Shown piece by piece: positions 15,499-38,705 of a stretch of 64,000 nucleotides of DNA. The notes below the pieces were generated by a model. That model was not told where the DNA came from and did not search any database. It worked only from the letters and a program-made list of their open reading frames with translations. The DNA comes from Candidatus Limiplasma pullicola (lineage in GTDB: Bacteria; Bacillota; Clostridia; Christensenellales; Aristaeellaceae). The stretch spans positions 1-64,000 of the forward strand of contig DVIV01000064.1 of NCBI GenBank assembly GCA_018710985.1, in the 5' to 3' direction. How positions within the stretch are numbered: the first letter of the stretch is position 1; every line of letters begins with the position of its first letter. A program made the translations under genes and the position numbers.

Positions 15499-16644
15499 AT
15501 GCGAAAAATGCTTTGTATCCTGCTGCTCCTGCTGGCGCTGGCCGCGCCCGCCCTGGCCCAGACCCAGGTGGACGAGGTGCGCACGCAGATCGGGGAAAAC
15601 TACGTGGCCTACCCGCAGCTCACCGGCATGGCGGACGAGGCCGTGCAGAAGAAAATCAATGACGACATCGTGCTTTCCTCCGGCGTGACCAATCACCTGG
15701 TCACGCTGGCCACGCTGGGGGACAGCCCGTGGGGCCTGAAGGTGGACTATCGGGTGGCGCTCCTGGAGGACGGCGTGTTTTCCGCCGTGATCAACGCCCA
15801 GGGCAAGATGCCGGATGGACATGAGGGACAGGCCTATTCCGCCCTGACCTATGACCTCACCACCGGCGAGCGGCTGTCGCTGGACAAGCTGTTTGAGGAT
15901 GTGGACGCAGCGGTCGCGTGGATGGAGGCCGCCGCGGAGGAAAGCCTTGGGCAGGAGCTGAGCGGCTATATGGAATACAGCGACCTGACACCCCTGCCGC
16001 GGGAGGCCTTCACGCTGGACGCGGACGGCATCACTTTCTGGTATCCGTCCGACCAATTGCGTCTGATGAGCGGCTACAGCGGAGCATGCCAGTTTTTCTA
16101 CAGCGAGCTTGCGGGTTTTTTTCTGACAGGAGAGGACGAGCTGCCTGCCCAGATCTGCGCGGTGCAGGCTCCGCTGTCCCGGCAGGAGGCGCGCAAGGCC
16201 ATTGAGGATGCGGTCGCGGCGGGCAAGCTGCCCCACGTTCCCGTCGCTTTGGGCGACCGCATGACCGATGTGGTGGACCGCTACCGCCTGCTGCGCACCC
16301 CGGACGAATTTCCCGGCGGGCGCTACTACGTGCTGGAAGAGCCGGTTTTCCGTGAGGTGCTGGTTATTTCGGATGCCATTCAGACCGGTTATGGCGCCTC
16401 CGTGGTGGAAGGCGTGCAGATGCGCCGCGGCGATCTGTGCGGCCTGCAGATCGGACAGGCCGTGCGGGAGGACTGGCGCGCCATCTTGGGCGATCCCGAC
16501 GAAACCATGATCTTTACCGACAGCATGGCCTATGATTATGGTCTGCCTGTGGGGGAAAGCGACGTTTATCATTTTGGGGAGCACGAGCTCAGGCTTCACA
16601 CTGATGCGGACGGCGTGCTGCGCGCCGTGCAGCTTGGCAAGTAA
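15499..16644 (+). CDS. Secreted DUF3298-like protein
   Basis: Signal peptide MRKMLCILLLLLALAAPALA; repeated beta-rich domain (YSALTYDLTTGERLSLDKLFED) typical of the DUF3298/RsiV-type family. Confidence 0.55.
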   Translation: MRKMLCILLLLLALAAPALAQTQVDEVRTQIGENYVAYPQLTGMADEAVQKKINDDIVLSSGVTNHLVTLATLGDSPWGLKVDYRVALLEDGVFSAVINAQGKMPDGHEGQAYSALTYDLTTGERLSLDKLFEDVDAAVAWMEAAAEESLGQELSGYMEYSDLTPLPREAFTLDADGITFWYPSDQLRLMSGYSGACQFFYSELAGFFLTGEDELPAQICAVQAPLSRQEARKAIEDAVAAGKLPHVPVALGDRMTDVVDRYRLLRTPDEFPGGRYYVLEEPVFREVLVISDAIQTGYGASVVEGVQMRRGDLCGLQIGQAVREDWRAILGDPDETMIFTDSMAYDYGLPVGESDVYHFGEHELRLHTDADGVLRAVQLGK

Positions 16645-16661
16645 CGGAGGAACGGACATTC

Positions 16662-19535
16662 ATGGCAAAGAGCAAAAAAGCCGCCGCACAGTATGAATCG
16701 GGCACGCTGGCGGCGTTCGCGGTGGTGGGCATCCTGCTCATCGCGCTGGGCGTGGTATCGCTTCTGGCGGTGGTGGGCGGCCTGCAGGGCGCGTTTTTTT
16801 CCATGGTCAAGCGCGTCATGCAGGGCCTGGGCGGCGGACTTTGCCTGGGGGTCAGCGTGCTGCTGATCTGGGCGGGGGTGCTGGTGGCGTTCTCCTCCGG
16901 CCGCAGCATGCCCAAACGCGGGTTTCTGCTCTTTACGCTGCTGCTCTTTGCCGTGCTGGGCATCATCGACCTGGTCAGCCGCGTGGGGCAGGACACGCTT
17001 CCCGCCTATCTGGTGAAATACAACAATCAGGCCGCGCTTCCCGCTACGGAGGCGTCGGGCTACTGGAACATGATCTGTGCCGCGTTCAACGTATGCGGCG
17101 CCAGCGGGGCGTTCGGCGGCGCGCTGGGCATGGTGCTGGGATGGCCGGCCTGGACCTTTCTGGGCACGGTGCTGGGCACGGTAGCGCTGGGCGCGGTCTG
17201 CGCGGCCTGCGTGCTGCTGGTGTCCCGCTTTGATATCCTGCAGATGGTCGAAGGCGTGCGCGACGGCTGGCAGGCGCGTCAGCAGGCGATCCAGCAGCAG
17301 CGTGCCCAGCGGGAATATCAGGAGCAACTGGAGGATCAGCGCCTTCAGGAGCAGGAGGACGACCGCCGGATGCGCTCGCCGGCCTTCCGCCGCCGGGGCG
17401 AGACAGAGCCTCCCGCGCAGGAGATGCCGGTCTATCCGCCCTATGGCAGCATGATGATGCAGCAGCCACCCATGCAGCAGCCGCCCATGCCGCAGGGCGG
17501 CATGCCCGTCTATCCCTATGGCATGCCGCCGGTGTATCCCCAGCAGCCGCCGCCGGCGCAGCCCCAGGCGGAAATCTATGACGAGCTGATCATCCCGGAG
17601 GGACGGCAGCTCCCCTGGCGCAAGACGGAAGGCAAGGGCAAAAAGAAAGAGAAACAATATCAGACCCGCATGACCTTCACTCCCGGCGAAATGGGCGCCG
17701 ATACCACCGAAACGCAGCTGCCCGATACGCTGATCATGTCTGCGTCCAAGCGCAAGGCCATGGACCGCATCGAGGAAATCCGGCGCCGCAAGGCGGAGAT
17801 TGCCGGCAGCGTAGGGGAAGATGGCGTGGCGGAGGAGGCGGCGCCGTATGCCGCGGTGCCGCCGCAGATGGCGCCCACGCCCATCGTGCCGGTCGCTCCG
17901 GTGCAGGAGGCGCCTGCAGCCCCTGTGCAGCAGGCGCAGGCCCCGGCGGCTCCGCCGCTGCAAAGCGCGCCGCTGTCGCCCAAGGCCGAAGCCGTGGAGG
18001 ATCGAAACGCGGCGTACAAGCGCCCGGCGGGCCAGCCCCGGCCCATGCCTCCGGCCGGTGAGCCCCGGCCCGTGGAGCGCACCCCCTACGCCTATCCCTC
18101 CATCGACCTGCTCAATATCCAGCAGCGCCGCGCAGCGACCGATACCCGCGCACAGGACACGGCGGACGCCACGCGCCTGGAAAAGACCCTGGAGAGCTTC
18201 GGCATCCCCGCGCGCGTGCAGCGCGTGACCCACGGCCCCGCCGTCACCCGTTTCGAGCTGGGACTGGTGTCCAGCGGTGTGAACGTCAAACGCATCATGA
18301 GCATCGCCGACAACATTGCCCTGGATATGGCGGCCAACGGTGGCGTGCGCATCGAAATTCCCATCCCCGGCACCAACCTTTTCGGCGTGGAAATTCCCAA
18401 TAAGGAAATCCAGAGTGTGTCGCTGGCCGAGGTGCTATTAAGCCCCGAGATGCAGGCCGCCAAGTCGCCGCTGGCCGTGGCGCTCGGCCGCGACATCGCG
18501 GGCCGCGCCGTCATCTGCGACCTGGCCAGGATGCCGCACCTGCTCATCGCGGGCCAGACGGGCAGCGGCAAATCCGTGTGCATCAACGCCATCGTCAATT
18601 CCATCCTCTTCCGCTCCCCGCCGGAGGAGGTGCGCATGATCATGATTGACCCCAAGGTGGTCGAGCTGCAATGCTACAACGTCGTGCCGCATCTGCTCAT
18701 TCCCGTGGTGAGCGATCCGCACAAGGCCGCCGGCGCGCTGCAGTGGGCCGTGGCCGAAATGCTGGACCGCTATCACAAGATGCAGTCCAAGAACGTGCGC
18801 GAGCTGTCCGCCTATAACGCCAAGCTCGGCCCCGGCGAGGAAAAGCTGCCCCGCATCGTCATCATCATCGACGAGTTGGCCGATCTCATGCTCGCCTGCA
18901 AAAAGGAAGTCGAGGAGAGCATCATCCGCATCGCGCAGCTTGCGCGCGCAGCGGGCATTCACATGGTGGTTGCCACCCAGCGCCCCACGGTGGATGTCAT
19001 CACCGGCCTCATCAAGGCAAACGTGCCCTCGCGCATCGCCTTCGCAGTGTCCTCCAGCATCGACAGCCGTACCATTCTGGACCAGAACGGCGCGGAAAAG
19101 CTGCTGGGCCGCGGCGACATGTTCTACTTCCCCACGGGCGCCAGTGCGCCCATCCGCGTACAGGGCTGCTTCCTCAGCGACGCGGAGACGGAGCGCGTGG
19201 TGAATTACATTGCTCAGCATTCGCATGTGGACTTTGACCCCAACGTGATTGAGGCCATGGAAAGCGATGATGTCGCCGGCAGCCCGCTGGCTGACAGCGA
19301 CGAAGAAAGCGGCGTGGACGACCGCCTGCTGGAGGCTATCGACATGGTCATTACCGACGGGCAGGCCAGCATCAGCATGCTCCAGCGCCGCATGAAGATC
19401 GGCTACGCCCGCGCGGGCCGTCTGATCGACGACATGGCCGCGCGCGGCATCGTGAGCAAATCCGTGGGCAGCAAGCCCCGCGAGGTGCTCATCAGCCGCG
19501 AGGAATTCGAGAAGATCAAGGATACGCTGGTTTGA
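16662..19535 (+). CDS. FtsK/SpoIIIE family DNA translocase
   Basis: N-terminal TM segments, Pro/Gln-rich linker, GQTGSGKSVCINAIVNSILF Walker A, MIDPKVVELQCYN, C-terminal gamma winged helix (SISMLQRRMKIGYARAGRLIDDM). Confidence 0.97.
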   Translation: MAKSKKAAAQYESGTLAAFAVVGILLIALGVVSLLAVVGGLQGAFFSMVKRVMQGLGGGLCLGVSVLLIWAGVLVAFSSGRSMPKRGFLLFTLLLFAVLGIIDLVSRVGQDTLPAYLVKYNNQAALPATEASGYWNMICAAFNVCGASGAFGGALGMVLGWPAWTFLGTVLGTVALGAVCAACVLLVSRFDILQMVEGVRDGWQARQQAIQQQRAQREYQEQLEDQRLQEQEDDRRMRSPAFRRRGETEPPAQEMPVYPPYGSMMMQQPPMQQPPMPQGGMPVYPYGMPPVYPQQPPPAQPQAEIYDELIIPEGRQLPWRKTEGKGKKKEKQYQTRMTFTPGEMGADTTETQLPDTLIMSASKRKAMDRIEEIRRRKAEIAGSVGEDGVAEEAAPYAAVPPQMAPTPIVPVAPVQEAPAAPVQQAQAPAAPPLQSAPLSPKAEAVEDRNAAYKRPAGQPRPMPPAGEPRPVERTPYAYPSIDLLNIQQRRAATDTRAQDTADATRLEKTLESFGIPARVQRVTHGPAVTRFELGLVSSGVNVKRIMSIADNIALDMAANGGVRIEIPIPGTNLFGVEIPNKEIQSVSLAEVLLSPEMQAAKSPLAVALGRDIAGRAVICDLARMPHLLIAGQTGSGKSVCINAIVNSILFRSPPEEVRMIMIDPKVVELQCYNVVPHLLIPVVSDPHKAAGALQWAVAEMLDRYHKMQSKNVRELSAYNAKLGPGEEKLPRIVIIIDELADLMLACKKEVEESIIRIAQLARAAGIHMVVATQRPTVDVITGLIKANVPSRIAFAVSSSIDSRTILDQNGAEKLLGRGDMFYFPTGASAPIRVQGCFLSDAETERVVNYIAQHSHVDFDPNVIEAMESDDVAGSPLADSDEESGVDDRLLEAIDMVITDGQASISMLQRRMKIGYARAGRLIDDMAARGIVSKSVGSKPREVLISREEFEKIKDTLV

Positions 19536-19742: not shown

Positions 19743-20753
19743 TTACTGATCCTTCTTGGTGGCGTAGGCCGCGACCAGAGCCAGGGCCAGCACGGCGCCC
19801 TTCACGGCGGGCAGCACGTAGTAGGGCACGGCGCAGATGGTCAGGCCGTTTTCCAGCGTGGATACCAGCATGGCGCCGATCAGCGTGCCCAAAGCGTTTG
19901 GTTTCTCCGCACCGCCGACCGAGCGGCCGACGAACACAGCAGCCAGCGACTGCATCAGGTAGTCGTCGCAGCACATAACCTGTGCGGAAGAGCCGCGGGA
20001 GGAAACCAGGATGCCGCCGATGGCGATGAACACAGCGGTGATCATACCGGCCAGGTAGCGGTACGCCTTGACGTTGATGCCGCTGAGCTTGGCGGCCTGC
20101 TTATTGCCGCCCATGGCATAGATGAAGCGGCCATGCTTGGTGTACTCCAGGAAGATGTAGGCGATCAGCACGCACACCAGCATGATGACGATCAGCCAGG
20201 GCTCGCGGCCGATGGCGCTGAAGGAAGGCTCCAGCTTGGTGCGCACGGGGGAGGCGCCGCTGGGCAGGCGCATGCCGGTGGAGACAGCGCCGCCGCCGAT
20301 GTACCATTGGCCCAACCCCTGATGCACGAACATCAATGCGCAGGTTGCCAGCATGTCGGGAATCTTGCAGACCAGGATGAGGAACATGGTCAGCTGATAC
20401 ATCACCAGCGTGACGAGGATACATACCAGAATGCAGGCCCACAGCGGCAGGCCGTACCACAGGTACATGCTCACGAACACATAGGCCGAACAGCTGGCCA
20501 GCGTACAGGCCGACATGTCAAAGCCGTCGGGCGCCATGGTCACGGTGGCTGCGATGCCGAACACCGTGGTGATGGACATGGCGCGCAGAATGTTGATCAT
20601 GTTGTTAACCGACATGAAGCGGTTACCCTTGAGCAGAGTGAATGCCACAAAGCACAGCACCAGCGTGATGACGGCCGCCCAGTCCAGCAGGAAGCGGAGG
20701 AAAGTCTTGTTTTGCTTTGTCGCCAGCGGATTTGGTTTCAACGTTGCTTGCAT
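19743..20753 (-). CDS. Sugar ABC transporter permease (RbsC/BPD_transp_2 family)
   Basis: Polytopic protein with TVTMAPDGFDMSACTLASCSAYV, AMGGNKQAAKLSGINVKAYRYLAGMITAV. Confidence 0.92.
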   Translation of the reverse strand: MQATLKPNPLATKQNKTFLRFLLDWAAVITLVLCFVAFTLLKGNRFMSVNNMINILRAMSITTVFGIAATVTMAPDGFDMSACTLASCSAYVFVSMYLWYGLPLWACILVCILVTLVMYQLTMFLILVCKIPDMLATCALMFVHQGLGQWYIGGGAVSTGMRLPSGASPVRTKLEPSFSAIGREPWLIVIMLVCVLIAYIFLEYTKHGRFIYAMGGNKQAAKLSGINVKAYRYLAGMITAVFIAIGGILVSSRGSSAQVMCCDDYLMQSLAAVFVGRSVGGAEKPNALGTLIGAMLVSTLENGLTICAVPYYVLPAVKGAVLALALVAAYATKKDQ

Positions 20754-20788
20754 AACGAAATGCCCTCCTGTTATCGCCTGCCCTGCGG

Positions 20789-22312
20789 TCAGGCGTACTT
20801 TGTGGTGCTGCCCACAGCGTAGTGCATGATCTCGTCCTCGTTGGTTTTCGCGGTTTCCAGCTCCGCCATGATGTGGCCGTCATAGAGCACGTAGATGCGG
20901 TCGGTGATGGAAAGGAGCTCGGAGTTTTCGCACGAGGCATAGATCACGCTGCTGCCGCGCTTGGTGATGTCGTTGATCAGGCGGAAGATGTCCTGCTTCG
21001 CGCCCACGTCCACACCCTTGGTAGGCTCGTCGAAGATGTACACGTCGCAGTCCGCGGCCATCCACTTGCCCACGGCCACCTTCTGCTGGTTGCCGCCGGA
21101 GAGGTTCTTCACGTACTGCTTGATCGACGGGGTGGCGATGCCCAGGTCGTTGACATACTGGCGGGCGTTGGCATCCACCTTGTTTTTCAGGATGAACGAC
21201 GCCTTGCAGAACCGGCTCAGCGACGCGGCGGAGAGGTTGAAGCTGACGTTTTCGTTCACCAGCACGCCTTCCTTGCGCCGCTCCTCCGGCACCAGGGCGA
21301 TGCGGTTTTTGACCGCGTGGGAGGGGTTTTTGATCTTGAGTTCCTCGCCGTTCAAGCGCACGGTGCCGGCCGTGCGTTCGTAGGCGCCGAAGATGGTCTT
21401 GCACAGCTCGGACTTGCCCGCGCCGACCAGACCCGCGATGCCCACGATCTCGCCCCTGCGCACGTAGAAGGACACGTCGTTGACCTTGCCGTCCGCGCCG
21501 GACAGGTTTTCGACCTCGAACACCTTTTCGCCGATGGGCACATGCTCCTTGGGGAAGTTTTCCTCAAACGAGCGGCCCAGCATCTTCTCCACGATTTCGC
21601 GGGTGGTGGTCTGGGGTGTGATGGGCGAGGTATCCACGATTTCGCCGTTGCGCATCACGGTGTAGCTTTCGCAGATCTGGATGATCTCGTTGATGCGGTG
21701 GGAAATAAAGATAATGGCGATATTCTCCGTTTCCTGAAGGTGCTTGACCAGCCGGAAAAGCTCGGCGGTTTCCGTATCGCTCAGCGGTGCGGTAGGCTCG
21801 TCAAGAATCAGGAAATTGCATTCGTTGGCTATGGCTCTGGCGATGAGGACCATCTGCTTTTGCGCAAGGGAGAGGTCCTGCACCAGCGTGCGCACGTTTA
21901 CATCGATGTTCAGCCGGTCCAGCACGGCCTTGGCCTGCGTGCGCAGCTTGGGCCAGTTGACGAGGGGATTGCGGCCGGCGTTCATGACCATGTCGTTGAG
22001 CATGACGTTTTCGGCGACCGAAAGCGTGGGAACCAGCGCCATGTCCACCTCCTGGTAGACGATCTGGATACCCAGCTTCTTGGCAGCCATGGTGGAGCGC
22101 AGCTCAACGGGCTTGCCGTTGAGGTACACCTCGCCTGTATAATCCGGATTTGCACCCGCAAGGACCTTCATCAGGGTGGACTTGCCCGCTCCGTTGGCGC
22201 CTACGAGCGCGTGAATCTCACCGGTGCTGACCTCAAAGTCTACATTGGTTAACGCCTTTACACCGGGAAATTCGATGGATACCTTGCGGGTACCAAGTGT
22301 CAGTCTGTCCAT
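20789..22312 (-). CDS. Sugar ABC transporter ATP-binding protein (RbsA/MglA-type, two NBDs)
   Basis: GANGAGKSTLMKVLAG, DEPTAPLSDTETAELF, second NBD GAGKSELCKTIFG, LSGGNQQKVAVGKWMA, DEPTKGVDVGAK. ATG at 22312. Confidence 0.95.
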   Translation of the reverse strand: MDRLTLGTRKVSIEFPGVKALTNVDFEVSTGEIHALVGANGAGKSTLMKVLAGANPDYTGEVYLNGKPVELRSTMAAKKLGIQIVYQEVDMALVPTLSVAENVMLNDMVMNAGRNPLVNWPKLRTQAKAVLDRLNIDVNVRTLVQDLSLAQKQMVLIARAIANECNFLILDEPTAPLSDTETAELFRLVKHLQETENIAIIFISHRINEIIQICESYTVMRNGEIVDTSPITPQTTTREIVEKMLGRSFEENFPKEHVPIGEKVFEVENLSGADGKVNDVSFYVRRGEIVGIAGLVGAGKSELCKTIFGAYERTAGTVRLNGEELKIKNPSHAVKNRIALVPEERRKEGVLVNENVSFNLSAASLSRFCKASFILKNKVDANARQYVNDLGIATPSIKQYVKNLSGGNQQKVAVGKWMAADCDVYIFDEPTKGVDVGAKQDIFRLINDITKRGSSVIYASCENSELLSITDRIYVLYDGHIMAELETAKTNEDEIMHYAVGSTTKYA

Positions 22313-22362
22313 GGATTTCCCTCTTCTCTCATTCACTGCAAGCGGTCGGGATATTTTATGGG

Positions 22363-22396
22363 AAGAAGCGTCGGAGCAAATACTCCGACGCTTCTT
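22363..22396 (-). promoter_or_regulatory. Intercistronic stem-loop between SBP and ATPase genes
   Basis: Perfect 14-bp arms aagaagcgtcggag / ctccgacgcttctt, 6-nt loop, no U-tract on the minus transcript. Confidence 0.75.
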
Positions 22397-22441
22397 TGTC
22401 AAGAAACATTGCTCGAATGGGTTATGAATTGCTGCGGAGGC

Positions 22442-23554
22442 TTACTTGTGCAGCAGGTCGGCGGGCATCCAGTCGGCCACGGACAGGTAGCTCAGGTTGC
22501 CGTAGGTCTCGCCGGCGATTTCGCCGAGGTTCTCAACGGTGCTGTCTTCCTTGAGGGCGGAGGCCAGGATAGCGCTGCCAGGGATCTCAACCACGTCCAC
22601 GCCGTACTCGCCGGTGGCGGGGTCATAGATCTTGTCGTACTCGCCGGCCAGCTCCAGCATGAGCAGGCGCATGGCGATCTCGCCGTTCAGGGTCCAGTCG
22701 GTGGTGCCGGCCGCGTACCAGATGTCGGGGCGGGTCTGCATGTTGGTCACGTCCACCTGGTCGATGTCAACGGACGCCATGGGCAGGGCTTCGCCGGCCT
22801 CGCCGTTGAAGTTGGCGTTCTCGAAGATGGCGTTGTACACGCCCTGGCCGTAGAGGTCGTAGTAGGCGATGACGCCGTCCACATCCTCGCGGTTGATGCT
22901 CTGCAGCTTGGCGGCGGTCACGCTGTTGGCGCTGTCAACGCTGTCCTGCAGGGGCTGGATCTCGTCCACGGTCACGATCTTGCCGGCGGCTTCATACTCC
23001 TGCCAGCCAACCTCGCGGCGGTCGAACGGGCTGTTGTAGTTGGGGCCGCGCCATACCTTGATCAGACGCACGCCCTCGCCGAACTTGGCGATCATCTCGT
23101 CCAGAAGAACGGTGACCAGGCTCTTGTCCTGCTGGAACAGCTGGGTCACGCCCTCGATCTTCTGATACTCGCCGTCGGTGTAGAACTGGGTGTCGAAGCA
23201 CACGAGCTTGAGCTCGGGATACTTCTCGGTCAGCTCCTTGAGGAACACATAGGAGCCGTCCTGGTTGCCGTGGCTGACGAGCAGTCCGTCATAGCCGGCG
23301 GCGGCGCAGGTGTTGATGGTGTCCATCCAGCGGTTGAAGTCACCGTCGCAGAAGTAGAAGTCGAACTCCACATCCAGCGCGGCGCACAGGTCAGCGCAGG
23401 AATCCTTCCACATCTGGAAGATGGTGGCGGAGGGCAGCAGCATGATATACGCTACCTTCTTGCCGGCGACGGGGTTGGCCGTTTCCGCAGAGGCCACGGT
23501 CAGCATGGACAGCGCCAGCATGAGAGCCAGGACCAGAGCAACGATTTTTTTCAT
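22442..23554 (-). CDS. Sugar-binding protein of ABC transporter (Peripla_BP_4/RbsB-like)
   Basis: Signal peptide MKKIVALVLALMLALSMLTVASA, periplasmic binding protein pattern; first gene of rbs-type ABC operon. Confidence 0.88.
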   Translation of the reverse strand: MKKIVALVLALMLALSMLTVASAETANPVAGKKVAYIMLLPSATIFQMWKDSCADLCAALDVEFDFYFCDGDFNRWMDTINTCAAAGYDGLLVSHGNQDGSYVFLKELTEKYPELKLVCFDTQFYTDGEYQKIEGVTQLFQQDKSLVTVLLDEMIAKFGEGVRLIKVWRGPNYNSPFDRREVGWQEYEAAGKIVTVDEIQPLQDSVDSANSVTAAKLQSINREDVDGVIAYYDLYGQGVYNAIFENANFNGEAGEALPMASVDIDQVDVTNMQTRPDIWYAAGTTDWTLNGEIAMRLLMLELAGEYDKIYDPATGEYGVDVVEIPGSAILASALKEDSTVENLGEIAGETYGNLSYLSVADWMPADLLHK

Positions 23555-23613
23555 GGTAAACCTCCTATTCACTTTTGGGCGCTTATGGGAAACTATCGCC
23601 CTTTGCTGACATC

Positions 23614-23934: not shown

Positions 23935-24813
23935 ATGCAAGGCATCCATCGCTATCCAACGGATGACGAGGCAAAAAAGCTGATCGTGGAGATCGGCCGG
24001 CGGATGTATCAAAAGAATTTCGTGGCCGCCAACGACGGCAATATCAGCTGCAAGGTGGACGACGACATCATCTGGACCACGCCCACGGGCGTGTCCAAGG
24101 GCTTTATGTCGGAGGATATGATGGTCAAGATGCGCCTGGACGGCACGGTGCTGTCCCAGGGCGAGCGCGGGCCGTCCAGCGAAGTCAAGATGCACCTTCG
24201 CATCTATAATGAAAACCCGGAGGTCCGGGGCGTGTGCCATGCGCATCCGCCCATCAGCACCTCCTTTGCCATCGCGGGCATCGGTCTGGACAAGGCCATC
24301 TATCCCGAGGCGCTGGTCAACCTGGGTACCGTGCCCTGCGTGCACTATGAGGCGCCCGGCTCCCAGGGCATTCCGGACAGCATCGCACCCTACTGCCGCG
24401 ACTACAACGCCTTGCTTCTGGCCAACCACGGCGCGGTGGCGTGGGGCGGATCGCTCATGGAGGCGTGGTACCGGCTGGAGTCCACCGAGCACTACGCCAT
24501 GGTCATCATGTACACCGGCAACATCATCGGCAAGGCCAACGTGCTCAGCTGCGAGCAGGTGGGCGAGCTGATCGAGATCCGCAAGAAGATGGGCATCACC
24601 AGCGGCGGCGTGCCGCCTTGCACGGCGCGCGCCACCAACACCGTCGATGTGGTGGCGGGCCATAGCCCCGTGGCGGATAACCCGCCGGCCCTCAAGACCT
24701 ACGGCCAGAGCGCCTCGCCCTGCGGCTGCGCGGGCGGCAGCGCCGCGGCGGACGAGGCCGAGCTTCAGGCCATCACCCGCGCGGTGCTGGAGCGCATCAA
24801 GAATTTGAAATAA
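23935..24813 (+). CDS. Class II aldolase (fuculose/rhamnulose-1-phosphate aldolase family) with C-terminal encapsulation helix
   Basis: ANDGNISCK, GPSSEVKMHLRIY, CHAHPPIS Zn-ligand motif, LLLANHGAVAWG; C-terminal tail after CGCAGG linker: ADEAELQAITRAVLERIKNLK. Confidence 0.9.
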   Translation: MQGIHRYPTDDEAKKLIVEIGRRMYQKNFVAANDGNISCKVDDDIIWTTPTGVSKGFMSEDMMVKMRLDGTVLSQGERGPSSEVKMHLRIYNENPEVRGVCHAHPPISTSFAIAGIGLDKAIYPEALVNLGTVPCVHYEAPGSQGIPDSIAPYCRDYNALLLANHGAVAWGGSLMEAWYRLESTEHYAMVIMYTGNIIGKANVLSCEQVGELIEIRKKMGITSGGVPPCTARATNTVDVVAGHSPVADNPPALKTYGQSASPCGCAGGSAAADEAELQAITRAVLERIKNLK

Positions 24814-26194: not shown

Positions 26195-26998
26195 ATGAAC
26201 AAGCTGACGACTCTGGAACAGGCGATCTCCCTCATCGGGGACGGCGCGTGCGTGGGCCTGGGCGGCAACACCTTAAACCGCGCGCCCATGGCGGCTGTCT
26301 TTGAGATGGTTCGCCAGAAAAAGCGCGGCCTGCGCGTGGTCAAGACCGCGGGCGCGATGGACGTGGACGCGCTGTGCCTGGCGGGCTGCGCCGCCTCGGT
26401 GGACGCGGGCTTCATCAGCTATGAAAGCCAGTACGGCCTTGCCCAGCGCTACCGCAGAAGCGTGCAGTCCGGGTTGGTGCGCGCCAACGAGCACGCCTGC
26501 TACACCGTGATCTCGGCCCTGCGCGCTGCCAGCTACGGCATTCCCTTCATGCCGGTGCGCGGCCTCAAGGTGAGCGACCTGCGCAAGGTCAACGACTATT
26601 TCGCCGATGTGACCGACCCCTTCACGGGGGAGACGCTGGCCGCCGTGCGCGCCATCCGTCCCGACTTCGCCGTGGTGCACGCGCAGATTGCCGACTCGCA
26701 GGGCAACGCCTTCTTTGAAGGTCCCAAGTACGAGGATGTGCTTTTGTCCCGCGCATCGAAAAAGGTGATCGTGACCGCCGAGCGCATCGTGGGCGACGGG
26801 TATTTTTCCGGCGGCGAGCGCAAGGCGGACATTCCGCATTTTCTGACCGCCGCCGTGGTGCACGCGCCGCGCGGCGCGGCCCCCGGAGCGTGCTATGGCT
26901 GCTATGAGCCGGACGGCGCGCTGATCCGCGCGTTTCTGGAGCTCAAGGACGCGGAAGCGCTGGACCGCTTCCTTTCGGAAGGGGGGAGGCGGCTGTGA
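26195..26998 (+). CDS. CoA-transferase family protein, alpha-type subunit
   Basis: GDGACVGLGGNTLNRAPMAAVFEMVRQKKRGLRVVK; family I CoA-transferase alpha pattern; paired with beta-type ORF. Confidence 0.8.
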   Translation: MNKLTTLEQAISLIGDGACVGLGGNTLNRAPMAAVFEMVRQKKRGLRVVKTAGAMDVDALCLAGCAASVDAGFISYESQYGLAQRYRRSVQSGLVRANEHACYTVISALRAASYGIPFMPVRGLKVSDLRKVNDYFADVTDPFTGETLAAVRAIRPDFAVVHAQIADSQGNAFFEGPKYEDVLLSRASKKVIVTAERIVGDGYFSGGERKADIPHFLTAAVVHAPRGAAPGACYGCYEPDGALIRAFLELKDAEALDRFLSEGGRRL

Positions 26999-27711
26999 TC
27001 CGTCCCTGCGATATGATGACGGCAGCCATGGCGCGCCTCATCCATGATGGCGACACGGTCTTCCACGGCGTGTCCTCGCACATGCCCATGATCGCGACCC
27101 TGCTGGCCAAGCGCCTGCACGCGCCAAACGCCGTACACCTCAACATCCCCGGCGGGGTGGACCCCGTCAAGCCGGCGCTGCGCGAGTTCACCAGCGCGGG
27201 CGGGGAACTGTGGGAAACGGCCTGCGCGGGCTTTCCGCTGATGGAGGTGTTCGACCTGAGCATGCGCGGCGGGCTGGACGTGGCGTTTTTGAGCGGCGTG
27301 CAGTTCGACGACCGGGGCAACGTCAACGCCTCCGTCATCGGCCCCTATGAGAAGCCAAAGGTCCGCCTGCCCGGCGGCGCGGGCAGCGCCGTGCTCATTC
27401 CCACGGCCAAACGCGCCATCATCTGGCGCACCAAGCACGACCGCCGCACCTTTGCCCGCGAGGTGGATTTTGTGACCGCGCAGGGCAACGTGAGTGAAAT
27501 CGTCACCCCCCTGTGCGTGTTTACCATGTACCAGGGCCAGCTCATTTTGAAGAGCGTGCACCCGTATACCACCATCGACGAGGTGGCGGCAAACACCGCG
27601 TTTCCCATCCGCTATTTCACCATTGAGACCACGCCGCCCCCCACCGCCGAGGAGCTGCGCGCGATGGCGGAAATCGACCCGCTGGACCTGCGAAACATCG
27701 AGTTTCGCTGA
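26995..27711 (+). CDS. CoA-transferase family protein, beta-type subunit
   Basis: DGDTVFHGVSSHMPMIATLLAKRLHAPNAVHLNIPGGVDP; GTG start overlapping upstream stop. Confidence 0.8.
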   Translation: MIRPCDMMTAAMARLIHDGDTVFHGVSSHMPMIATLLAKRLHAPNAVHLNIPGGVDPVKPALREFTSAGGELWETACAGFPLMEVFDLSMRGGLDVAFLSGVQFDDRGNVNASVIGPYEKPKVRLPGGAGSAVLIPTAKRAIIWRTKHDRRTFAREVDFVTAQGNVSEIVTPLCVFTMYQGQLILKSVHPYTTIDEVAANTAFPIRYFTIETTPPPTAEELRAMAEIDPLDLRNIEFR

Positions 27712-27763: not shown

Positions 27764-28978
27764 ATGCCCCGTTACGACACCTATTTCCTCATGAAGGAAG
27801 CCGATGTGGCCGACTATGTTCAGACCAAGTACCCCGGTCACTTTGACAAGGACGCGGCGCTGACCGTCAAGGAGATCGGCGACGGCAACCTCAACTACGT
27901 GTTCCGCGTGGTGGAGGAGAAGACCGGCAAGTCCATCATCGTCAAGCAGGCGGGCGAGGCGCTGCGCATTTCGGCGGAGATGAAGGTTTCCACCGACCGC
28001 AACCGCATCGAAAGCGAGATTCTGCAGATTCAGGACAAGTACGCCCCCGGCCTGGTGCCCAAGATCTACGGCTATGACACCGTGATGTGCGCCTGCGCCA
28101 TGGAGGACCTGTCCGACCATGCGCTGATGCGCTACGCGCTCATGCGGCACGAGACCTTCCCGCGCTTTGCCGAGGACATCTCCACCTACATGGTCAACAC
28201 CTTGCTCAAGACCACCGACGTGGCCATGGAGCACAAGGAAAAGAAGGCCATGGTCAAGAGCTTCATCAACCCCGAGCTGTGCGAGATCACCGAGGACCTG
28301 GTGCTGACCGAGCCGTACAACGACTGCAACCACCGCAACAACGTTTTCCCGCCCATCGCCGACTTCGTGCGCCGTGAGCTCTATGAGGACGACGCGCTCA
28401 AGCTGGCCGTGGCCAAACTCAAGTTCGAGTTCATGAACAACGCCCAGGCCCTCATCCACGGCGACCTGCACACCGGTTCCATCTTCATCCGGCAGGATTC
28501 CACCCGCGTGTTCGACCCCGAATTCGCCTTCTACGGCCCCATGGGCTACGACATCGGCAACGTGGTCGCCAACCTGATTTTTGCCTGGGACAACGGCCGC
28601 GCCGCCGGGGCGGACGAATTCTGCGACTGGGCGCTCAAGGCCATCGAGGAGACGGTGGACCTGTTCTGCGAGAAATTCCTCAAGTGCTTTGACGAGTGCG
28701 TGACGGACCTCATGGCCAAGACCCCCGGCTTCAAGGAATTCTACCTGGATTCCATCCTGTCCGACACCGCGGCCTATGCGGGCACCGAGCTCATCCGCCG
28801 CACCGTGGGCATGGCCAACGTCAAGGACGTGACCACCATCGCCGACGAAGCCAAGCGCGCCCATGCCGAGAAGGTCAACATCCTCTGCGGCAAGGACTAC
28901 ATCATGAACCGCACGGCCTTCAAGACCGGCGCCGATTTCGTCGCCGCCGTCAAGCGCGCCGATGAAGCGGCCAAGTAA
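27764..28978 (+). CDS. mtnK: S-methyl-5-thioribose kinase
   Basis: [48 protein letters not shown]: characteristic MtnK motifs. Confidence 0.93.
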
Positions 28979-28992
28979 GGGAGGAAACCGCC

Positions 28993-30090
28993 ATGGCTGA
29001 CAAGAGCATCATGAGCTACGAGACCGTCGCGCTGGACGACGAAAAGAGCGCGCTGGTCATCCTGGACCAGACCAAGCTGCCCTACGAGGTGGAGATCCTC
29101 AGCCTCACCGACCAGAAGGACATCTGGAACGCCATCTACCTCTTGCAGGTGCGCGGCGCGCCCGCCATCGGCGTGGCGGCGGGCTTCGGCGTGTATCTGG
29201 CCGCCAAGCAGATTCAGGCCGACACCTGGGACGAATTCTATCCCCAGTTCAAGGCCGCCAAGGATTACCTCAACTCCTCCCGTCCCACCGCCGTCAACCT
29301 CTCCTGGGCGCTTAACCGCATGGAGCAGGTGGTGCTGGACAACAAGGACAAGAGCGTTCCCGAGCTCAAGGAGCTTCTGCACAAGGAGAGCGTGGCCATC
29401 AAGGACGAGGACGTGTGGATGTGCCGCCAGATCGGCGAGTACGGCCTGACCCTCATCAAGGACGGCGACGGCATCCTCACCCACTGCAACGCCGGCCAGC
29501 TGGCCACCTCCAAGTACGGCACCGCGCTGGCCCCCATCCATCTGGGCCGCGAGCGCGGCATGAACTTCCGCGTCTATACGGACGAAACCCGCCCGCTGCT
29601 GCAGGGCGCGCGTCTGTCCGCCTTTGAGATGCAGGCCGACGGCGTGGACACCACCGTCATCTGCGATAACATGGCCTCTCAGGTCATGAAGAACGGCTGG
29701 GTCAACGCCGTGTTCGTCGGTTGCGACCGCGTGGCCGCCAACGGCGACGCCTGCAACAAGATCGGCACCTCCGGCGTGGCGATTCTGGCCAAGTACTACG
29801 GCATCCCCTTCTATGTGCTGGGCCCCACCTCCACCATCGACATGTCGATTGCCCGCGGCGAGGACATCACCATCGAGCAGCGCCCCGCCGAGGAAGTGAC
29901 CGAGATGTGGTACAAGCGCCGCATGGCGCCCGAGGGCGTGAAGGTCTATAACCCCGCCTTCGACTTTGCCGACAACGAGCTCATCGCGGGCATCGTGACC
30001 GAGTACGGCATCGCCCGTCCGCCCTACAACGAGAGCCTCAAGGAGATCTTCAAAAAGAAGGCCGAGGCCGAAGCTGCCAAGAAGAAGTAA
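28993..30090 (+). CDS. mtnA: S-methyl-5-thioribose-1-phosphate isomerase
   Basis: [34 protein letters not shown] (catalytic Cys), [18 protein letters not shown] (catalytic Asp). Confidence 0.95.
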
Positions 30091-30141: not shown

Positions 30142-31026
30142 ATGAACGAAAAGGAACTGCGCGCCGCGGTGGAGCGGCTGGTGCTTTGCGAGCTGGCTAA
30201 AACGGGTCAGCGCCATGTGCCGGTGATGTCCTCCAACCGCCATGTGCACCTGTGCCAGGCGGATGTGGAGAAGCTCTTCGGCGCGGGCTACCATCTCACC
30301 AAAATGCGCGATCTGGTCCAGCCCGGGCAGTTCGCCTGCAACGAGCGTGTGACCATCGAAACCGAAAAGGGCAAGATGGCGCTGCGCGTGGTGGGCCCGG
30401 CCCGCAAGGAAACGCAGATTGAGCTGTCCTTCACCGACGCGGTGAAGCTGGGCCTCAAGCCCCCCATCCGCATGTCGGGCGACCTGGCGGGCAGCCCCGG
30501 CTGCACGCTGGCAAACGGCGACAGCCGCGTGACGGTCCCCCGCGGGGTGATCGTGGCCGAGCGCCATCTGCACCTGGCCCCGGACGAGGCCGAAGCCTTC
30601 GGCGTGAAGGACGGCGACGTGGTCAGCCTCGTGGTGGAGGGACCGCGCCCCGGCACGCTGGATGGCGTGATCGTGCGCAGCGGCAAGGGGCATCTCATGG
30701 AGGCACACATCGACAAGGACGAGGCCAACGCCTGCGCCCTGTCCGACGGGCAGCTTTGCCGCGTGATCCGAAAGGAGGACGGGCCTGCCGTGTCGAATAA
30801 GAGGGACATATGCGCCTGTGCGCCGCCCCCGCCGCCCCCCGCGCCCAAGCGGCAGACACTTTTGGACCTGAGCGCCGAAAGCCGCCGCCTGGTCACAGAG
30901 GATGATGTGCGCACGGCTGCGCGTGACGGCTACAAGATCATCCGTTATGCGCCCGACGCCATCCTGACCCCCCTGGCCCGCGACGCGGCCTCGGAGAGGG
31001 GCATCGAACTGGTACCCGTGATATAA
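30142..31026 (+). CDS. pduL: PduL-type phosphotransacylase with C-terminal EutQ-like extension
   Basis: VPVMSSNRHVHLCQADVEKLFG, VIVAERHLHLAPDEAE; N-term amphipathic helix; polyproline linker ACAPPPPPPAPK; C-term RLVTEDDVRTAARDGYKIIRYAPDAILTPLARDAASERGIELV. Confidence 0.9.
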   Translation: MNEKELRAAVERLVLCELAKTGQRHVPVMSSNRHVHLCQADVEKLFGAGYHLTKMRDLVQPGQFACNERVTIETEKGKMALRVVGPARKETQIELSFTDAVKLGLKPPIRMSGDLAGSPGCTLANGDSRVTVPRGVIVAERHLHLAPDEAEAFGVKDGDVVSLVVEGPRPGTLDGVIVRSGKGHLMEAHIDKDEANACALSDGQLCRVIRKEDGPAVSNKRDICACAPPPPPPAPKRQTLLDLSAESRRLVTEDDVRTAARDGYKIIRYAPDAILTPLARDAASERGIELVPVI

Positions 31027-31070: not shown

Positions 31071-32510
31071 ATGGCATTGACGGAACAGCAAATCAGGCAG
31101 ATTACGGACGAGATTGTGCGCAGTCTCTCCGGCGCCATCCGGGCCGAGGCCGCCGCGCCTGCGCCCGCGCCCAAGCCGCAGCCGGCCGAAAGCGGACGCT
31201 GGCTGTGCGACACCGCCGAGGAGGCGGTTCAGAACGCCAAGGCCGCCCAGGCCAAGCTGGCCGACATGACGCTGGAAAAGCGCGGCGAGCTGATCGCCGC
31301 CATGCGCAAGGCGGGCATCGACAACGCCGAGTACCTTGCGCGCCTGGCGCATGAGGAAACGGGCTACGGCCATGTGGAGGACAAGATTCAAAAGAACCTG
31401 CTGGTCAGCCGCCGCACGCCGGGCATTGAGGATTTGCAGACCCGCTGCGAAACCGGCGACAAGGGCATGATGCTCATCGAGCAGGCGCCCTTCGGGGTCA
31501 TCGGTTCGATCACCCCGTCCACCAACCCCACCTCCACGGTCATCAACAACTCCATCAGCATGATCGCCGCGGGCAACGCCGTGGTCTTTAACCCCCATCC
31601 CGCGGCCAAGCACGCCTCGCAGGAGGCCATGCGCCTGATGGTGGAGGCCATCGTGTCCGCGGGCGGCCCGGCGGCGCTGATTACCACGGTCAAGGAGCCC
31701 ACGCTGGAAACCGGCCAGGCGATCATGACCCATCCGGACATCCCGCTTTTGAGCATCACCGGCGGCGAGGCCGTGGTGCGCGTGGCCATGAAGACCGGCA
31801 AGAAGGTCATCGCGGCCGGCCCCGGCAACCCGCCCGTCATCGTGGACGATACGGCGGACCTGCCCGACGCGGCCCGGCGCATCGTGGACGGCGCGAGCTT
31901 TGACAACAACGTGCTGTGCATCGCCGAAAAAGAGGTGTTCGCCTTTACCAACATCGCCGACCGCCTCATGAGCGAAATGGAGCGCTGCGGCGCGGTGCGC
32001 ATCTACGGCGCGGACATCGACAAGGTGCTCAAGACCACGCTCATCAACAAGGACGGCAGGTACGTCATCAACCGCAAGTATGTGGGCCATGACGCGGCGG
32101 TCATCCTGCGCGACAGCGGCGTGAGCTTCACCGGCAACCCGCGGCTGATTATCGCCGAGACGGACCGCAACCATCCCTTCGTCATGACCGAGATGCTCAT
32201 GCCCGTGCTGCCCATCGTGCGCGTGAGCAACATCGACGAGGCCGTCGAGGAGGCCTTCCGCGCCGAGCAGGGCTGCAAGCATTCCGCCATGATCCATTCT
32301 ACCAATGTGCACAACATGAGCAAGGCGGCCCGCAAGCTCAACACCACCATCTTTGTCAAGAATTCCTCCAGCTTCTCCGGCTTGGGCTTTGACGGCGAGG
32401 GCTACACCACCATGACCATCGCCACCCCCACCGGCGAGGGCGTCACCAGCGCGCGGTCCTTCACCAGGCTTCGCCGCTGCGTGCTCTACGGCGATTTCCG
32501 CATCTGCTGA
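31071..32510 (+). CDS. CoA-acylating aldehyde dehydrogenase (PduP/EutE family)
   Basis: APFGVIGSITPSTNPTSTVINN, FDNNVLCIAEKEVFAF (catalytic Cys), N-terminal helix LTEQQIRQITDEIVRSLSGAI plus Ala/Pro linker. Confidence 0.94.
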   Translation: MALTEQQIRQITDEIVRSLSGAIRAEAAAPAPAPKPQPAESGRWLCDTAEEAVQNAKAAQAKLADMTLEKRGELIAAMRKAGIDNAEYLARLAHEETGYGHVEDKIQKNLLVSRRTPGIEDLQTRCETGDKGMMLIEQAPFGVIGSITPSTNPTSTVINNSISMIAAGNAVVFNPHPAAKHASQEAMRLMVEAIVSAGGPAALITTVKEPTLETGQAIMTHPDIPLLSITGGEAVVRVAMKTGKKVIAAGPGNPPVIVDDTADLPDAARRIVDGASFDNNVLCIAEKEVFAFTNIADRLMSEMERCGAVRIYGADIDKVLKTTLINKDGRYVINRKYVGHDAAVILRDSGVSFTGNPRLIIAETDRNHPFVMTEMLMPVLPIVRVSNIDEAVEEAFRAEQGCKHSAMIHSTNVHNMSKAARKLNTTIFVKNSSSFSGLGFDGEGYTTMTIATPTGEGVTSARSFTRLRRCVLYGDFRIC

Positions 32511-32547: not shown

Positions 32548-33879
32548 ATGAACATCGTTGAACAGGTGCGTTTGTCAGGCGTGGTCGGCGCGGGCGGCGC
32601 GGGGTTCCCCACGCATGTGAAGCTGGGCGCCAGGGCCGAGTACGTCATCGCCAACGGCGCCGAATGCGAGCCGCTCCTGCGCGTGGACCAGCTGCTCATG
32701 CAGCGGCGCGCGGACCGCGTGGTGCGCGGCATGGAGCTGGCCATGCAGGCCACGGGCGCCAAGCAGGGCGTCATCGCCACCAAGGCGCACTACGAAGGCG
32801 CGGTCAAGGCACTCAAGGCCGCGCTGGGGAACCGAAAGGACATCACTTTGCACCTGATGGACAGCTACTATCCCTCCGGGGATGAAAAGTCCATCATCTA
32901 TGAGGTCACGGGCCGCGTGGTGCCCAGCGCCAAGCTGCCCGCGGATGTGGGCTGCGTGGTGAGCAACGTGGCTACGCTGTGCAACATCGCCGACGCGGCC
33001 GAGGGCCGCCCGGTGGTGGACAAGGACGTGACCGTGGGTGGCGACGTGCCCCATCCCCTCACCGTGACCGTTCCCGTGGGCACCCCGATGCGCGAGGTGA
33101 TCGCGCTGTCGGGCTTCACGGGCGCCAAGGAGGACTACGCGCTCATCGTGGGCGGGCCCTGCATGGGCAAGCTCGAGGAGGACTGGGACGCGCCGGTAAC
33201 CAAGACCACGGGTGGGCTGCTCATGCTCAGGCGCACGCATCTTCTGATCGCGCGCCGCACGCAGAGCCCCGAGCGGCTGCTCAAGATCGCGCGGGCGGTG
33301 TGCTGCCAGTGCAGCCAGTGCACGCAGATGTGTCCGCGCAACGCCCTCGGCCTGCACGTGGAGCCGCACAAGGCCATGCGCGCCATCACCACCGGCAACG
33401 GCGCCCTGCTGGGCAATGCCCGTTCGGTGCTGGCCTGCTCCAGCTGCGGCGTGTGCACCAACTACGCCTGCCACATGGGCCTTTCGCCCTCGGAGGTCAT
33501 GGCGCAGCTCAAGGATGAGCTGGGGCGCGCGGGCATCCGGCCGGTGCCGGAGGCGGACATTCGCGTGGACCCGTTCATCGTGCAAAAGCGCGTGCCGGTC
33601 AAGCGTCTGATCGCGCGCATGGGTCTGGCGGCGTTCGATACGCCCGCTCCGTACACGGACGCGGGGCTGCGGCCCAAACGGGTGCTGCTGCCGCTTCGCC
33701 AACACGTGGGCAAGCCCGCCGAAGCCACGGTGAAGCCGGGCGACCGGGTGCACCGGGGCGACGTGGTGGGCGAAATTCCCGACAAGGCGCTGGGCGCGCG
33801 GGTACACGCCTCCATCGACGGCGTGGTGACCGCCGTGGACGCCCGGGGCGTGGAAATCACAGGAGGTGAGAGCGCATGA
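32548..33879 (+). CDS. PduS/RnfC-like NADH-dependent Fe-S flavoprotein (SLBB domain)
   Basis: GGAGFPTHVKL, GGPCMG, two Cys clusters CCQCSQCTQMCPRNALG and CSSCGVCTNYAC. Confidence 0.92.
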   Translation: MNIVEQVRLSGVVGAGGAGFPTHVKLGARAEYVIANGAECEPLLRVDQLLMQRRADRVVRGMELAMQATGAKQGVIATKAHYEGAVKALKAALGNRKDITLHLMDSYYPSGDEKSIIYEVTGRVVPSAKLPADVGCVVSNVATLCNIADAAEGRPVVDKDVTVGGDVPHPLTVTVPVGTPMREVIALSGFTGAKEDYALIVGGPCMGKLEEDWDAPVTKTTGGLLMLRRTHLLIARRTQSPERLLKIARAVCCQCSQCTQMCPRNALGLHVEPHKAMRAITTGNGALLGNARSVLACSSCGVCTNYACHMGLSPSEVMAQLKDELGRAGIRPVPEADIRVDPFIVQKRVPVKRLIARMGLAAFDTPAPYTDAGLRPKRVLLPLRQHVGKPAEATVKPGDRVHRGDVVGEIPDKALGARVHASIDGVVTAVDARGVEITGGESA

Positions 33880-34421
33880 CCGCAATTGGCGTGGTAGAGA
33901 CACTCAGTATTCCCATGGGGGTGCTGGCGGGCGACCAGATGGTCAAGACCGCGCAGGTGGACCTGGTCACCGCGCAAACGGTGTGCGCGGGCAAGTACAT
34001 CGTAGTGGTCAGCGGCGAGGTGGCCGCGGTGCGTTCCTCCGTAAACGCCGGAATCGAAAACGCGGGGAGCACGCTGGTGGACAGCCTGGTCATCCCCAAC
34101 GTGGACGAGCGCGTGGTCGCCGCCATGGCGGGCGCATGTCCCGCCGAGCAGGTGGAGGCCGTGGGCGTGGTGGAGACCTTCTCACTGGCCAGCGCCATCA
34201 GCGTGGCGGATATCTCCGTCAAGGCCGCCGACGTGGAGCTCATCGAGGTGCGCCTGGGGCGCGGCATGGGCGGCAAATCCTACGTAATTATCACCGGCGA
34301 GGTCGCGGCCGTGGAATCGTCGGTCCGGGCCGCGGAGGCAGGCGAGGGGCTGGAAGGGCTGATCGCCTCCAGCGTGGTGATTCCCTCTCCCCATATGGAC
34401 ATGATTCGCGCGCTGATGTAA
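33876..34421 (+). CDS. Tandem-domain BMC-T shell protein, PduT-like
   Basis: Two BMC domains ([24 protein letters not shown]... and [24 protein letters not shown]...) with TVCAGKY matching the PduT cluster-ligand region. Confidence 0.93.
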
Positions 34422-34479
34422 GTCTTCTTTCAGGCGCGGGAACATAGATGAAATTCAAATGGCAAAGGAGTTTTCTACC

Positions 34480-34773
34480 ATGCAGGAAGCATTGGGCATG
34501 ATTGAAACCAGAGGGCTGGTAGGCGCGATTGAGGCGGCTGACGCCATGGTCAAGGCGGCCAACGTGCATTTGATCGGCAAGGAGCACATCGGCGGCGGCC
34601 TGGTCACCGTGATGGTCCGCGGCGATGTGGGCGCGGTCAAGGCGTCGGTGGAAGCCGGCGGCGCGGCGGCCAAGCGCGTGGGCGAGCTGATCAGCGTGCA
34701 TGTCATTCCCCGGCCCCATGGCGATGTGGAGGCCATCCTTCCCAACGTCGATGAAACGGCTACCAAGGCGTAA
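34480..34773 (+). CDS. BMC-H hexameric shell protein 1 (PduA-like)
   Basis: [27 protein letters not shown]..., [44 protein letters not shown] before ATG 34480. Confidence 0.95.
34612..34670 (+). repeat. Copy 1 of a 59-bp exact repeat shared by the two BMC-H genes
   Basis: atggtccgcggcgatgtgggcgcggtcaaggcgtcggtggaagccggcggcgcggcggc, identical to 34938-34996. Confidence 0.9.
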
Positions 34774-34802: not shown

Positions 34803-35078
34803 ATGGAAAAGCAAGCTCTGGGTATGGTTGAGACCAAGGGTCTGGTAGGTTCTATCGAGGCGGCCGATGCCATGGTCAAGGCGGCCAACGTTCATCTCAT
34901 CGGCAAGGTTCACGTGGGCGGCGGCCTGGTGACCGTCATGGTCCGCGGCGATGTGGGCGCGGTCAAGGCGTCGGTGGAAGCCGGCGGCGCGGCGGCTAAG
35001 CGCGTGGGCGAGCTGGTCAGCGTGCACGTCATTCCCCGGCCGCACGACGACGTGGAGGCCATTCTTCCCAAGCTGTAA
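34803..35078 (+). CDS. BMC-H hexameric shell protein 2 (PduA-like)
   Basis: [58 protein letters not shown]. Confidence 0.95.
34938..34996 (+). repeat. Copy 2 of the 59-bp exact repeat in the BMC-H genes
   Basis: Identical to 34612-34670. Confidence 0.9.
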
Positions 35079-35114: not shown

Positions 35115-36131
35115 ATGAAAAAGATCATCAACGCACCGGAGCGCTTTATTCCTGAAATGCTGGAGGGCATCTATGCCGCGCATCCCGACGAATTGATGTG
35201 CGTGGGCGGCGACCTTCATTGCCTTGTTTCCAAGCGGAAGCATGCGGGCAAGGTGGGCATCGCCACCGGCGGCGGTTCGGGCCACCTCCCGCTGTTTCTG
35301 GGCTATGTGGGTGAGGGCATGCTGGACGGCTGCTCCATCGGCGACGTGTTCCAGTCGCCCAGCGCCGAGCAGATGCTGGCCGTGACCAGGGAGATCGACC
35401 AGGGCGCGGGCGTGCTCTACATCTACGGCAACTACAACGGCGACATCTTCAACTTTGACATGGCGGCCGAGATGGCCGACATGGAGGAGGACATCCGCGT
35501 GGAAAGCGTCGTCGCGGGCGAGGACGTGGCCTCCGCGGGCCCCAGCGCCGAGGGCGAGCCCAACAAGCGCCGCGGCGTGGCGGGCATCTTCTTCGTCTAC
35601 AAGTGCGCGGGCGCAGCCGCGGCGGCGGGGCTGGATCTGGACGAGGTCAAGCGCGTAGCCGAAAAGGCGTGCGCCAATGTGCGTACCATGGGCGTGGCGC
35701 TCACCTCCTGCACGGTGCCGCGCGTGGGCCATCCCAGCTTTGAAATCGGGGACGACGAGATGGAAATCGGCATGGGCATCCATGGCGAGCCGGGCATCCG
35801 CCGCGGCAAGCTGCGTCCCGCCGACGAAATCGTGGACGAGATGCTCGCGCCCATTCTCAGCGACCTGCCCTTCCAGGCGGGCGACGAGGTGGCCGTGCTT
35901 ATCAACGGCCTGGGCGCGACCCCCATGGAGGAGCAGTACGTGATGTTCCGCCGCGTCAAGCAGACGCTGGACGAAAAGGGCATCCGCGTCTTCCGCACCT
36001 ATGTGGGCGAATATGCCACCTCCATGGAGATGGCGGGCGCGTCGATTTCGCTCATCCGCCTGGATGACGAGCTCAAGGGCTACCTCTCCGCGCCGGCGGA
36101 TACCCCCTTCTTCAAGCAGTTCCAGCTCTAA
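35115..36131 (+). CDS. DhaK-type dihydroxyacetone/ketose kinase subunit
   Basis: TGGGSGHLPLFLGYVGEGMLDG, NYNGDIFNFDMA, GMGIHGEPGI (substrate-binding His region). Confidence 0.9.
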   Translation: MKKIINAPERFIPEMLEGIYAAHPDELMCVGGDLHCLVSKRKHAGKVGIATGGGSGHLPLFLGYVGEGMLDGCSIGDVFQSPSAEQMLAVTREIDQGAGVLYIYGNYNGDIFNFDMAAEMADMEEDIRVESVVAGEDVASAGPSAEGEPNKRRGVAGIFFVYKCAGAAAAAGLDLDEVKRVAEKACANVRTMGVALTSCTVPRVGHPSFEIGDDEMEIGMGIHGEPGIRRGKLRPADEIVDEMLAPILSDLPFQAGDEVAVLINGLGATPMEEQYVMFRRVKQTLDEKGIRVFRTYVGEYATSMEMAGASISLIRLDDELKGYLSAPADTPFFKQFQL

Positions 36132-36143
36132 GGAGGCATGGCG

Positions 36144-36776: not shown

Positions 36777-36778
36777 TG

Positions 36779-38695: not shown

Positions 38696-38705
38696 GGGGA
38701 AGCGC

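Follow-up and report, generated by a model that had tools for sequence, protein, structure and literature searches.

5-Deoxyribose and methylthioribose are by-products of radical-SAM and polyamine chemistry. In Bacillus thuringiensis, the DHAP shunt DrdK-DrdI-DrdA forms DHAP from both sugars, together with acetaldehyde in the case of 5-deoxyribose and a thio-aldehyde in that of methylthioribose; DrdK uses the two equally well (PMC6079011). A shunt of this kind has also been described in E. coli (PMC10986504, PMC12632272), where 5-deoxyribose allows growth but not fermentation (PMC10986504). Like the locus presented here, these systems combine a kinase, an isomerase and a class II aldolase for the two sugars. 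Bacterial microcompartments (BMCs) offer a second set of relatives. The ACI BMCs and the aldolases of PVM and GRM5 share with our locus a signature aldolase of family PF00596 and a core acylating aldehyde dehydrogenase (AldDH), and a C-terminal encapsulation peptide (EP) has been reported for ACI (PMC8217296, PMC4207490). PVM-like BMC loci of Firmicutes likewise pair a class II aldolase with AldDH and usually have no alcohol dehydrogenase (PMC4207490, PMC8156839). In SPU BMCs, as proposed here, a sugar-phosphate aldolase passes acetaldehyde to AldDH, and EUT satellite modules (EutA/B/C/EutL) have been described for SPU3, SPU6 and HO BMCs (PMC8217296).

The window, a stretch of 64,000 nucleotides from Candidatus Limiplasma pullicola, carries genes of both kinds of system in a single locus:

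19743-23572, minus strand: sugar ABC importer (permease, ATPase and binding protein; PF02653, PF00005, PF13407), kept beside the locus in relatives
23935-24813, plus strand: class II aldolase (PF00596) of 292 aa, putative signature enzyme, with 159.9 bits in Pfam and invariant metal-site and catalytic residues
24856-26187, plus strand: CoA-disulfide-reductase-like flavoprotein (NF007123, 525 bits, cut-off 458)
26195-27711, plus strand: CoA-transferase subunits A and B (PF01144 in both)
27764-28978, plus strand: MtnK, 5-methylthioribose (5-deoxyribose) kinase (TIGR01767, 426 bits, cut-off 275)
28993-30090, plus strand: MtnA, methylthioribose-1-phosphate isomerase (TIGR00512, 405 bits, cut-off 279)
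30142-31026, plus strand: PduL phosphotransacylase (PF06130), the sole PduL in the genome, with a putative N-terminal EP, MNEKELRAAVERLVLCELAK, that matches the terminal motif
31071-32510, plus strand: AldDH (NF011927, 644 bits, cut-off 403), the only close copy in the genome, with a putative N-terminal EP, MALTEQQIRQITDEIVRSL, that matches the terminal motif
32548-33879, plus strand: PduS/RnfC-like electron-transfer protein (PF01512, PF13375 and a 4Fe-4S domain)
33876-34421, plus strand: BMC-T shell protein, PduT-like (two PF00936 domains)
34459-34773, plus strand: BMC-H shell protein (PF00936, 104 bits)
34803-35078, plus strand: BMC-H shell protein (PF00936, 98 bits)
35115-36776, plus strand: dihydroxyacetone-kinase-like DhaK (35115-36131; PF02733) and DhaL (36138-36776; PF02734)
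36773-37789, plus strand: LacI-family regulator (PF00356)
37801-38969, plus strand: four BMC-P vertex proteins of the EutN/CcmL type (PF03319 in each), the only four in the genome

The metabolosome gene set of BMC-H, BMC-T, BMC-P, AldDH and PduL lies entirely within this locus, from which the importer is divergently oriented. No alcohol dehydrogenase was found among the annotated locus proteins, as in several published BMC types; an Fe-ADH lies instead near an EUT module on contig C7. Since DhaK and DhaL genes also follow MtnK-MtnA-aldolase in shell-less Lachnospiraceae loci (L133, L144), they may be part of the pathway and not of the shell. PduL additionally carries a C-terminal extension (30742-31026) behind a CACAPPPPPP linker, with a weak match to TIGR02536 (eut_hyp), and related C-terminal endings occur in the PduL proteins of relatives.

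The aldolase frame opens with an ATG at 23935, closes with a stop codon at 24811-24813 and encodes 292 residues, in which Pfam recognizes a single domain, Aldolase_II, at residues 16-190. The solved class II aldolases YgbL, DrdA and FucA are 207-222 aa long, and their alignment to the window's enzyme stops at about residue 221. They thus end before the region that an earlier note on this DNA had singled out as an extension:

24616-24747, plus strand: linker, residues 228-271, rich in Cys, Pro and Ser and variable in length, with pLDDT below 50 at residues 253-270 and enrichment in Cys
24748-24810, plus strand: putative C-terminal EP, residues 272-292, with a predicted helix at 274-291, a conserved motif and coupling to shell genes

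The Ser/Pro/Gly/Cys-rich stretch of the linker is YGQSASPCGCAGGSAA (residues 256-271; 24700-24747), and the terminal segment is ADEAELQAITRAVLERIKNLK (residues 272-292; 24748-24810). An AlphaFold model, computed from an input alignment of 46 natural sequences, has a mean pLDDT of 89, with the catalytic domain mostly above 90. Values fall below 50 only at residues 253-270, which corresponds to a disordered linker, and one separate helix follows at residues 274-291 (block mean pLDDT 80 and 90). The tail is therefore predicted to be a short helix on a flexible linker at the terminus, as expected of an EP. The earlier note had described a linker followed by an amphipathic helix and had suggested the helical moment as a check. 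The residues it gave were exact, and the disordered linker and the helix are both predicted, whereas amphipathy found no support from the single sequence, whose hydrophobic moment of 0.41 is ordinary (shuffle p = 0.16). The family profile of tails, however, is strongly periodic, with p = 0.05 for the moment at 100 degrees and a maximum at 90 degrees (heptad-like). Among 51 non-redundant tails, motif positions 7, 10, 14 and 18 hold V/I/L/M/F in 94, 100, 100 and 96%, compared with just 0-4% at positions 8, 9, 12, 13, 16 and 17; in the window's aldolase the periodic hydrophobic residues are Leu277, Ile280, Val284 and Ile288. It is this conservation of positions across the family, not the moment of one sequence, that places the tail beyond chance. 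The linkers preceding the EP contain 6.4% Cys versus 1.6% in the catalytic domains, often as CGC. Cys-rich linkers were seen at 24616-24747 of the window and in the tails of L052-L070, L118, L058 and L059, with ten Cys in L118; a metal, disulfide or redox role is possible.

The same motif was sought on other proteins using a matrix whose training set consisted solely of tails from outside the window's own clade. The scan covered 66 proteins, namely the longest non-overlapping ORFs of the window, the locus proteins and EutC of contig C7, which was added deliberately. Within five residues of a terminus, the top four 18-mers among these 66 proteins were the C-terminus of the aldolase and the N-termini of AldDH, EutC and PduL. 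Because internal stretches of a few unrelated proteins reach equally high scores, the motif is informative at termini only. The termini of MtnK and MtnA showed no EP motif. Pairwise likeness of the aldolase tail to the ends of AldDH and PduL was weak (p 0.23 and 0.10), and the family matrix was used instead.

The association of the tail with shell genes was evaluated on aldolases gathered from same-family genomes and from named genomes. The tail was trimmed off, a tree was built from 102 catalytic domains, and 97 loci were scored for both tail and local shell genes. Tail and shell genes occurred together in 40 of the 97 loci, neither in 44, a tail without local shell genes in 13, and shell genes without a tail in none. 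In other words, the tail was encoded in 40/40 loci with shell genes beside the aldolase, and shell genes lay beside 0/44 tail-less aldolases. On well-supported branches, the tree yielded eight independent contrasts in tail state, about six of them concordant with the shell and none discordant (median p 0.03, range 0.016-0.125). When shell genes were scored anywhere in the genome, the coupling was weaker and not significant (median p 0.22), because many genomes carry other BMC loci; statements of presence or absence at genome level come from searches of the genomes' contigs.

The tree also supplies natural controls in the form of close aldolases with neither tail nor shell. In the Selenomonas loci L071, L074 and L075 and in L046, an aldolase 76% identical to the window's adjoins MtnA only and has no tail and no local shell. 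Loci L047 and L048 keep the importer, MtnK, MtnA and the aldolase, while AldDH, PduL, shell and tail are absent. A frame check for a relic EP in tail-less L046, the Selenomonas loci and L045 found no clear relic, the tail of L045 being a degenerate basic stretch.

The reading of the earlier note implies that the extension is absent from non-BMC homologues. The 44 tail-less aldolases without a local shell agree with this, but the 13 tailed aldolases without one, a minority, partly contradict it. All 13 are nested in clades in which other tailed aldolases do adjoin shell genes. For L088, L096-L098, L100, L101, L115 and L079, shell genes turned up only in other parts of the genome, and for L062, L076, L081, L102 and L122 no PF00936 genes were found in the genomes; several assemblies are drafts. 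The simplest reading is that the shell was lost recently and the tail has yet to decay. Missing assembly would also fit, and a second role for the tail in shell-less loci is possible. A 229-residue protein with a EutN/CcmL domain (L112:8222-8908, Christensenella sp.) is the neighbor of MtnA and of a tailed aldolase; no PF00936 was found in the contigs of its genome.

These shell-less cases lend some weight to the view that the extension is not a shell tag but serves another end, such as oligomerization or a heptad-like contact joining cargo enzymes to one another or to MtnA, which would be why it is kept without shells. Tails kept in genomes without PF00936 (L062, L076, L102, L122) and the heptad-like period near 90 degrees are consistent with it. 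Nevertheless, this is unlikely, since the tail is never missing where shell genes adjoin, its state shifts repeatedly with the shell on the tree, and the same motif recurs on AldDH, PduL and EutC, which have only BMC membership in common. The best reading of the tail is still that of the earlier note, a BMC encapsulation peptide on the signature aldolase, given its coupling to shell genes on the tree, the motif common to the N-termini of AldDH and PduL, and the linker-plus-helix architecture.

With regard to the reaction, Glu83, His102, His104 and His165 are invariant among 46 relatives, and Glu83 pairs with Glu76 of DrdA in the alignment, so that the residues expected of a DHAP-shunt aldolase are in place. 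The best fold matches of the model are YgbL, DrdA and FucA, with a TM-score of about 0.9 by target length. By both sequence and fold, the closest solved structures are YgbL-type enzymes (possible tetronate decarboxylases), followed by DrdA, and no curated NCBIfam cut-off is reached; the aldol reaction is thus assigned from gene context. MTR kinase and isomerase genes lie alongside the aldolase, as in the DHAP shunt, and MtnA, often with MtnK, accompanies it in shell-bearing and shell-less loci alike. A 595-residue frame (L051:2403-4187) contains a class II aldolase and MtnA, a possible fusion seen in a single case in a draft assembly; if real, it would tie these two steps together. Because the aldolase adjoins MtnK and MtnA, the encapsulated step is most likely that of the DHAP shunt, in which 5-deoxyribulose- or methylthioribulose-1-phosphate would yield DHAP and acetaldehyde or methylthioacetaldehyde. 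An aldolase supplying an aldehyde would also explain the presence of AldDH and PduL, both of which a dehydratase or decarboxylase would leave unexplained. The proposal of the earlier note that this is the signature enzyme inside the shell, setting the reaction that releases the aldehyde, is supported.

Two other readings concern the substrate and the enzyme itself. The tail could be an EP on an enzyme that forms lactaldehyde from a 6-deoxyketose phosphate, either fuculose or rhamnulose phosphate, as assigned to PVM and PVM-like BMCs; the enzyme superfamily is the same, the PVM and GRM5 aldolases also being PF00596, and PVM-like loci have been described as likely using a PVM-like substrate. We judge this improbable, as MtnK and MtnA exceed their curated cut-offs and stay with the aldolase in loci that lack shells, whereas the L-fuculose-phosphate aldolase models score far under theirs (TIGR01086, 62 vs 400 bits; NF040649, 102 vs 250 bits), and the annotated locus genes include no fucose or rhamnose kinase or isomerase and no lactaldehyde reductase. 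Least probable is a methylthioribulose-1-phosphate dehydratase (MtnB-like) or YgbL-like decarboxylase in place of an aldolase: the fold is common to MtnB and YgbL, the latter being the closest solved structure, and the top NCBIfam match is NF043034, under its cut-off (119 vs 250), but neither reaction gives the neighboring AldDH and PduL an aldehyde to work on, the MtnB model TIGR03328 is far under its cut-off (76.5 vs 137), and no further methionine-salvage enzyme was recognized among the annotated locus genes.

Judging from sequence, the predicted structure, the shared terminal motif and the co-occurrence with shell genes, we therefore consider it highly probable that an EP-tailed aldolase docked in a BMC carries out the DHAP shunt on 5-deoxyribose and/or 5-methylthioribose. 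The importer would take up one or both sugars, and MtnK and MtnA would act in the cytosol to form the ketose-1-phosphate. The last 21 residues of the aldolase, as a short helix on a flexible linker, would attach to proteins of the shell or core as the BMC assembles, and the encapsulated enzyme would split the ketose-1-phosphate into DHAP and acetaldehyde (or 2-methylthioacetaldehyde). DHAP would exit to glycolysis and the aldehyde would be retained inside the shell, where the EP-bearing AldDH would convert it to acyl-CoA and the EP-bearing PduL would convert acyl-CoA to acyl-phosphate, with PduS probably dealing with NADH. A toxic aldehyde would thus be both released and consumed inside a protein shell. 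Since DrdK uses 5-deoxyribose and methylthioribose equally, MtnK cannot separate the two sugars; one clue favoring acetaldehyde as the product is the EUT module in the same genome:

L064:5435-11076 and 16617-17807, contig C7: EUT satellite module with EutA, EutB, EutC (EP-like N-terminus), EutL, a EutK/EutM-like shell protein and a EutT-like protein, and the nearby Fe-ADH

Searches of the genome turned up no AldDH, PduL or BMC-P for this module beyond those in the window. If the module operates inside a shell, the acetaldehyde it forms would consequently need the core encoded in the window, and this coreless ethanolamine module probably shares the window's organelle. EutB was found in only 2/27 genomes tested, most of them with a window-type locus and some shell-less, namely the window genome and its close relative G007, so the sharing appears to be a local addition. 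We give roughly even chances to the broader proposal that DHAP-shunt organelles fermenting 5-deoxyribose and/or methylthioribose make up a widespread BMC type of Firmicutes, and that here one shell, AldDH and PduL also serve EutABC-EutL, handling acetaldehyde from two unrelated substrates. This would suggest that gut and soil Firmicutes use an organelle to ferment a sugar that arises as a toxic by-product of SAM chemistry.

The described systems differ from this locus in several respects. PVM and GRM5 have been assigned fuculose/rhamnulose phosphate and ACI is undefined, while the window's MtnK and MtnA point to 5-deoxypentose phosphates. For PVM-like loci, to whose type the Lacrimispora loci of this analysis may belong, the published substrate guess is fucose/rhamnose-like, GRM5 fragments have been suggested, and the main texts make no mention of MtnK or MtnA (PMC4207490, PMC8156839); their regulator is mostly DeoR, in contrast to LacI in the window locus. 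The DHAP-shunt aldolases have not been described as encapsulated, their papers mention no BMC, and DrdA, with 222 aa, has no tail (PMC6079011, PMC10986504, PMC12632272). Unlike the window locus, SPU BMCs employ a DeoC-type aldolase and RpiB on 2-deoxyribose (PMC8217296). Among the papers that could be searched, none links a microcompartment with the catabolism of methylthioribose or 5-deoxyribose. The one near hit concerns Acetobacterium woodii, in which an MTR kinase gene beside a pdu cluster (Awo_c26590) was called 'unrelated to BMC function' (PMC7593272), a reading that the locus type described here makes worth revisiting. The tail is, in itself, an EP of the textbook kind. It is valuable as a marker of the aldehyde-releasing enzyme, and because this enzyme travels with MtnK and MtnA, BMC loci for which fucose or rhamnose had been guessed gain a specific substrate that can be tested. 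Already known were a C-terminal EP on a class II aldolase (ACI) and class II signature aldolases in PVM and PVM-like loci, and as part of GRM5, and existing catalogues may list this type of locus by a different name. The substrate assignment and the shared EUT module seem to be the new elements.
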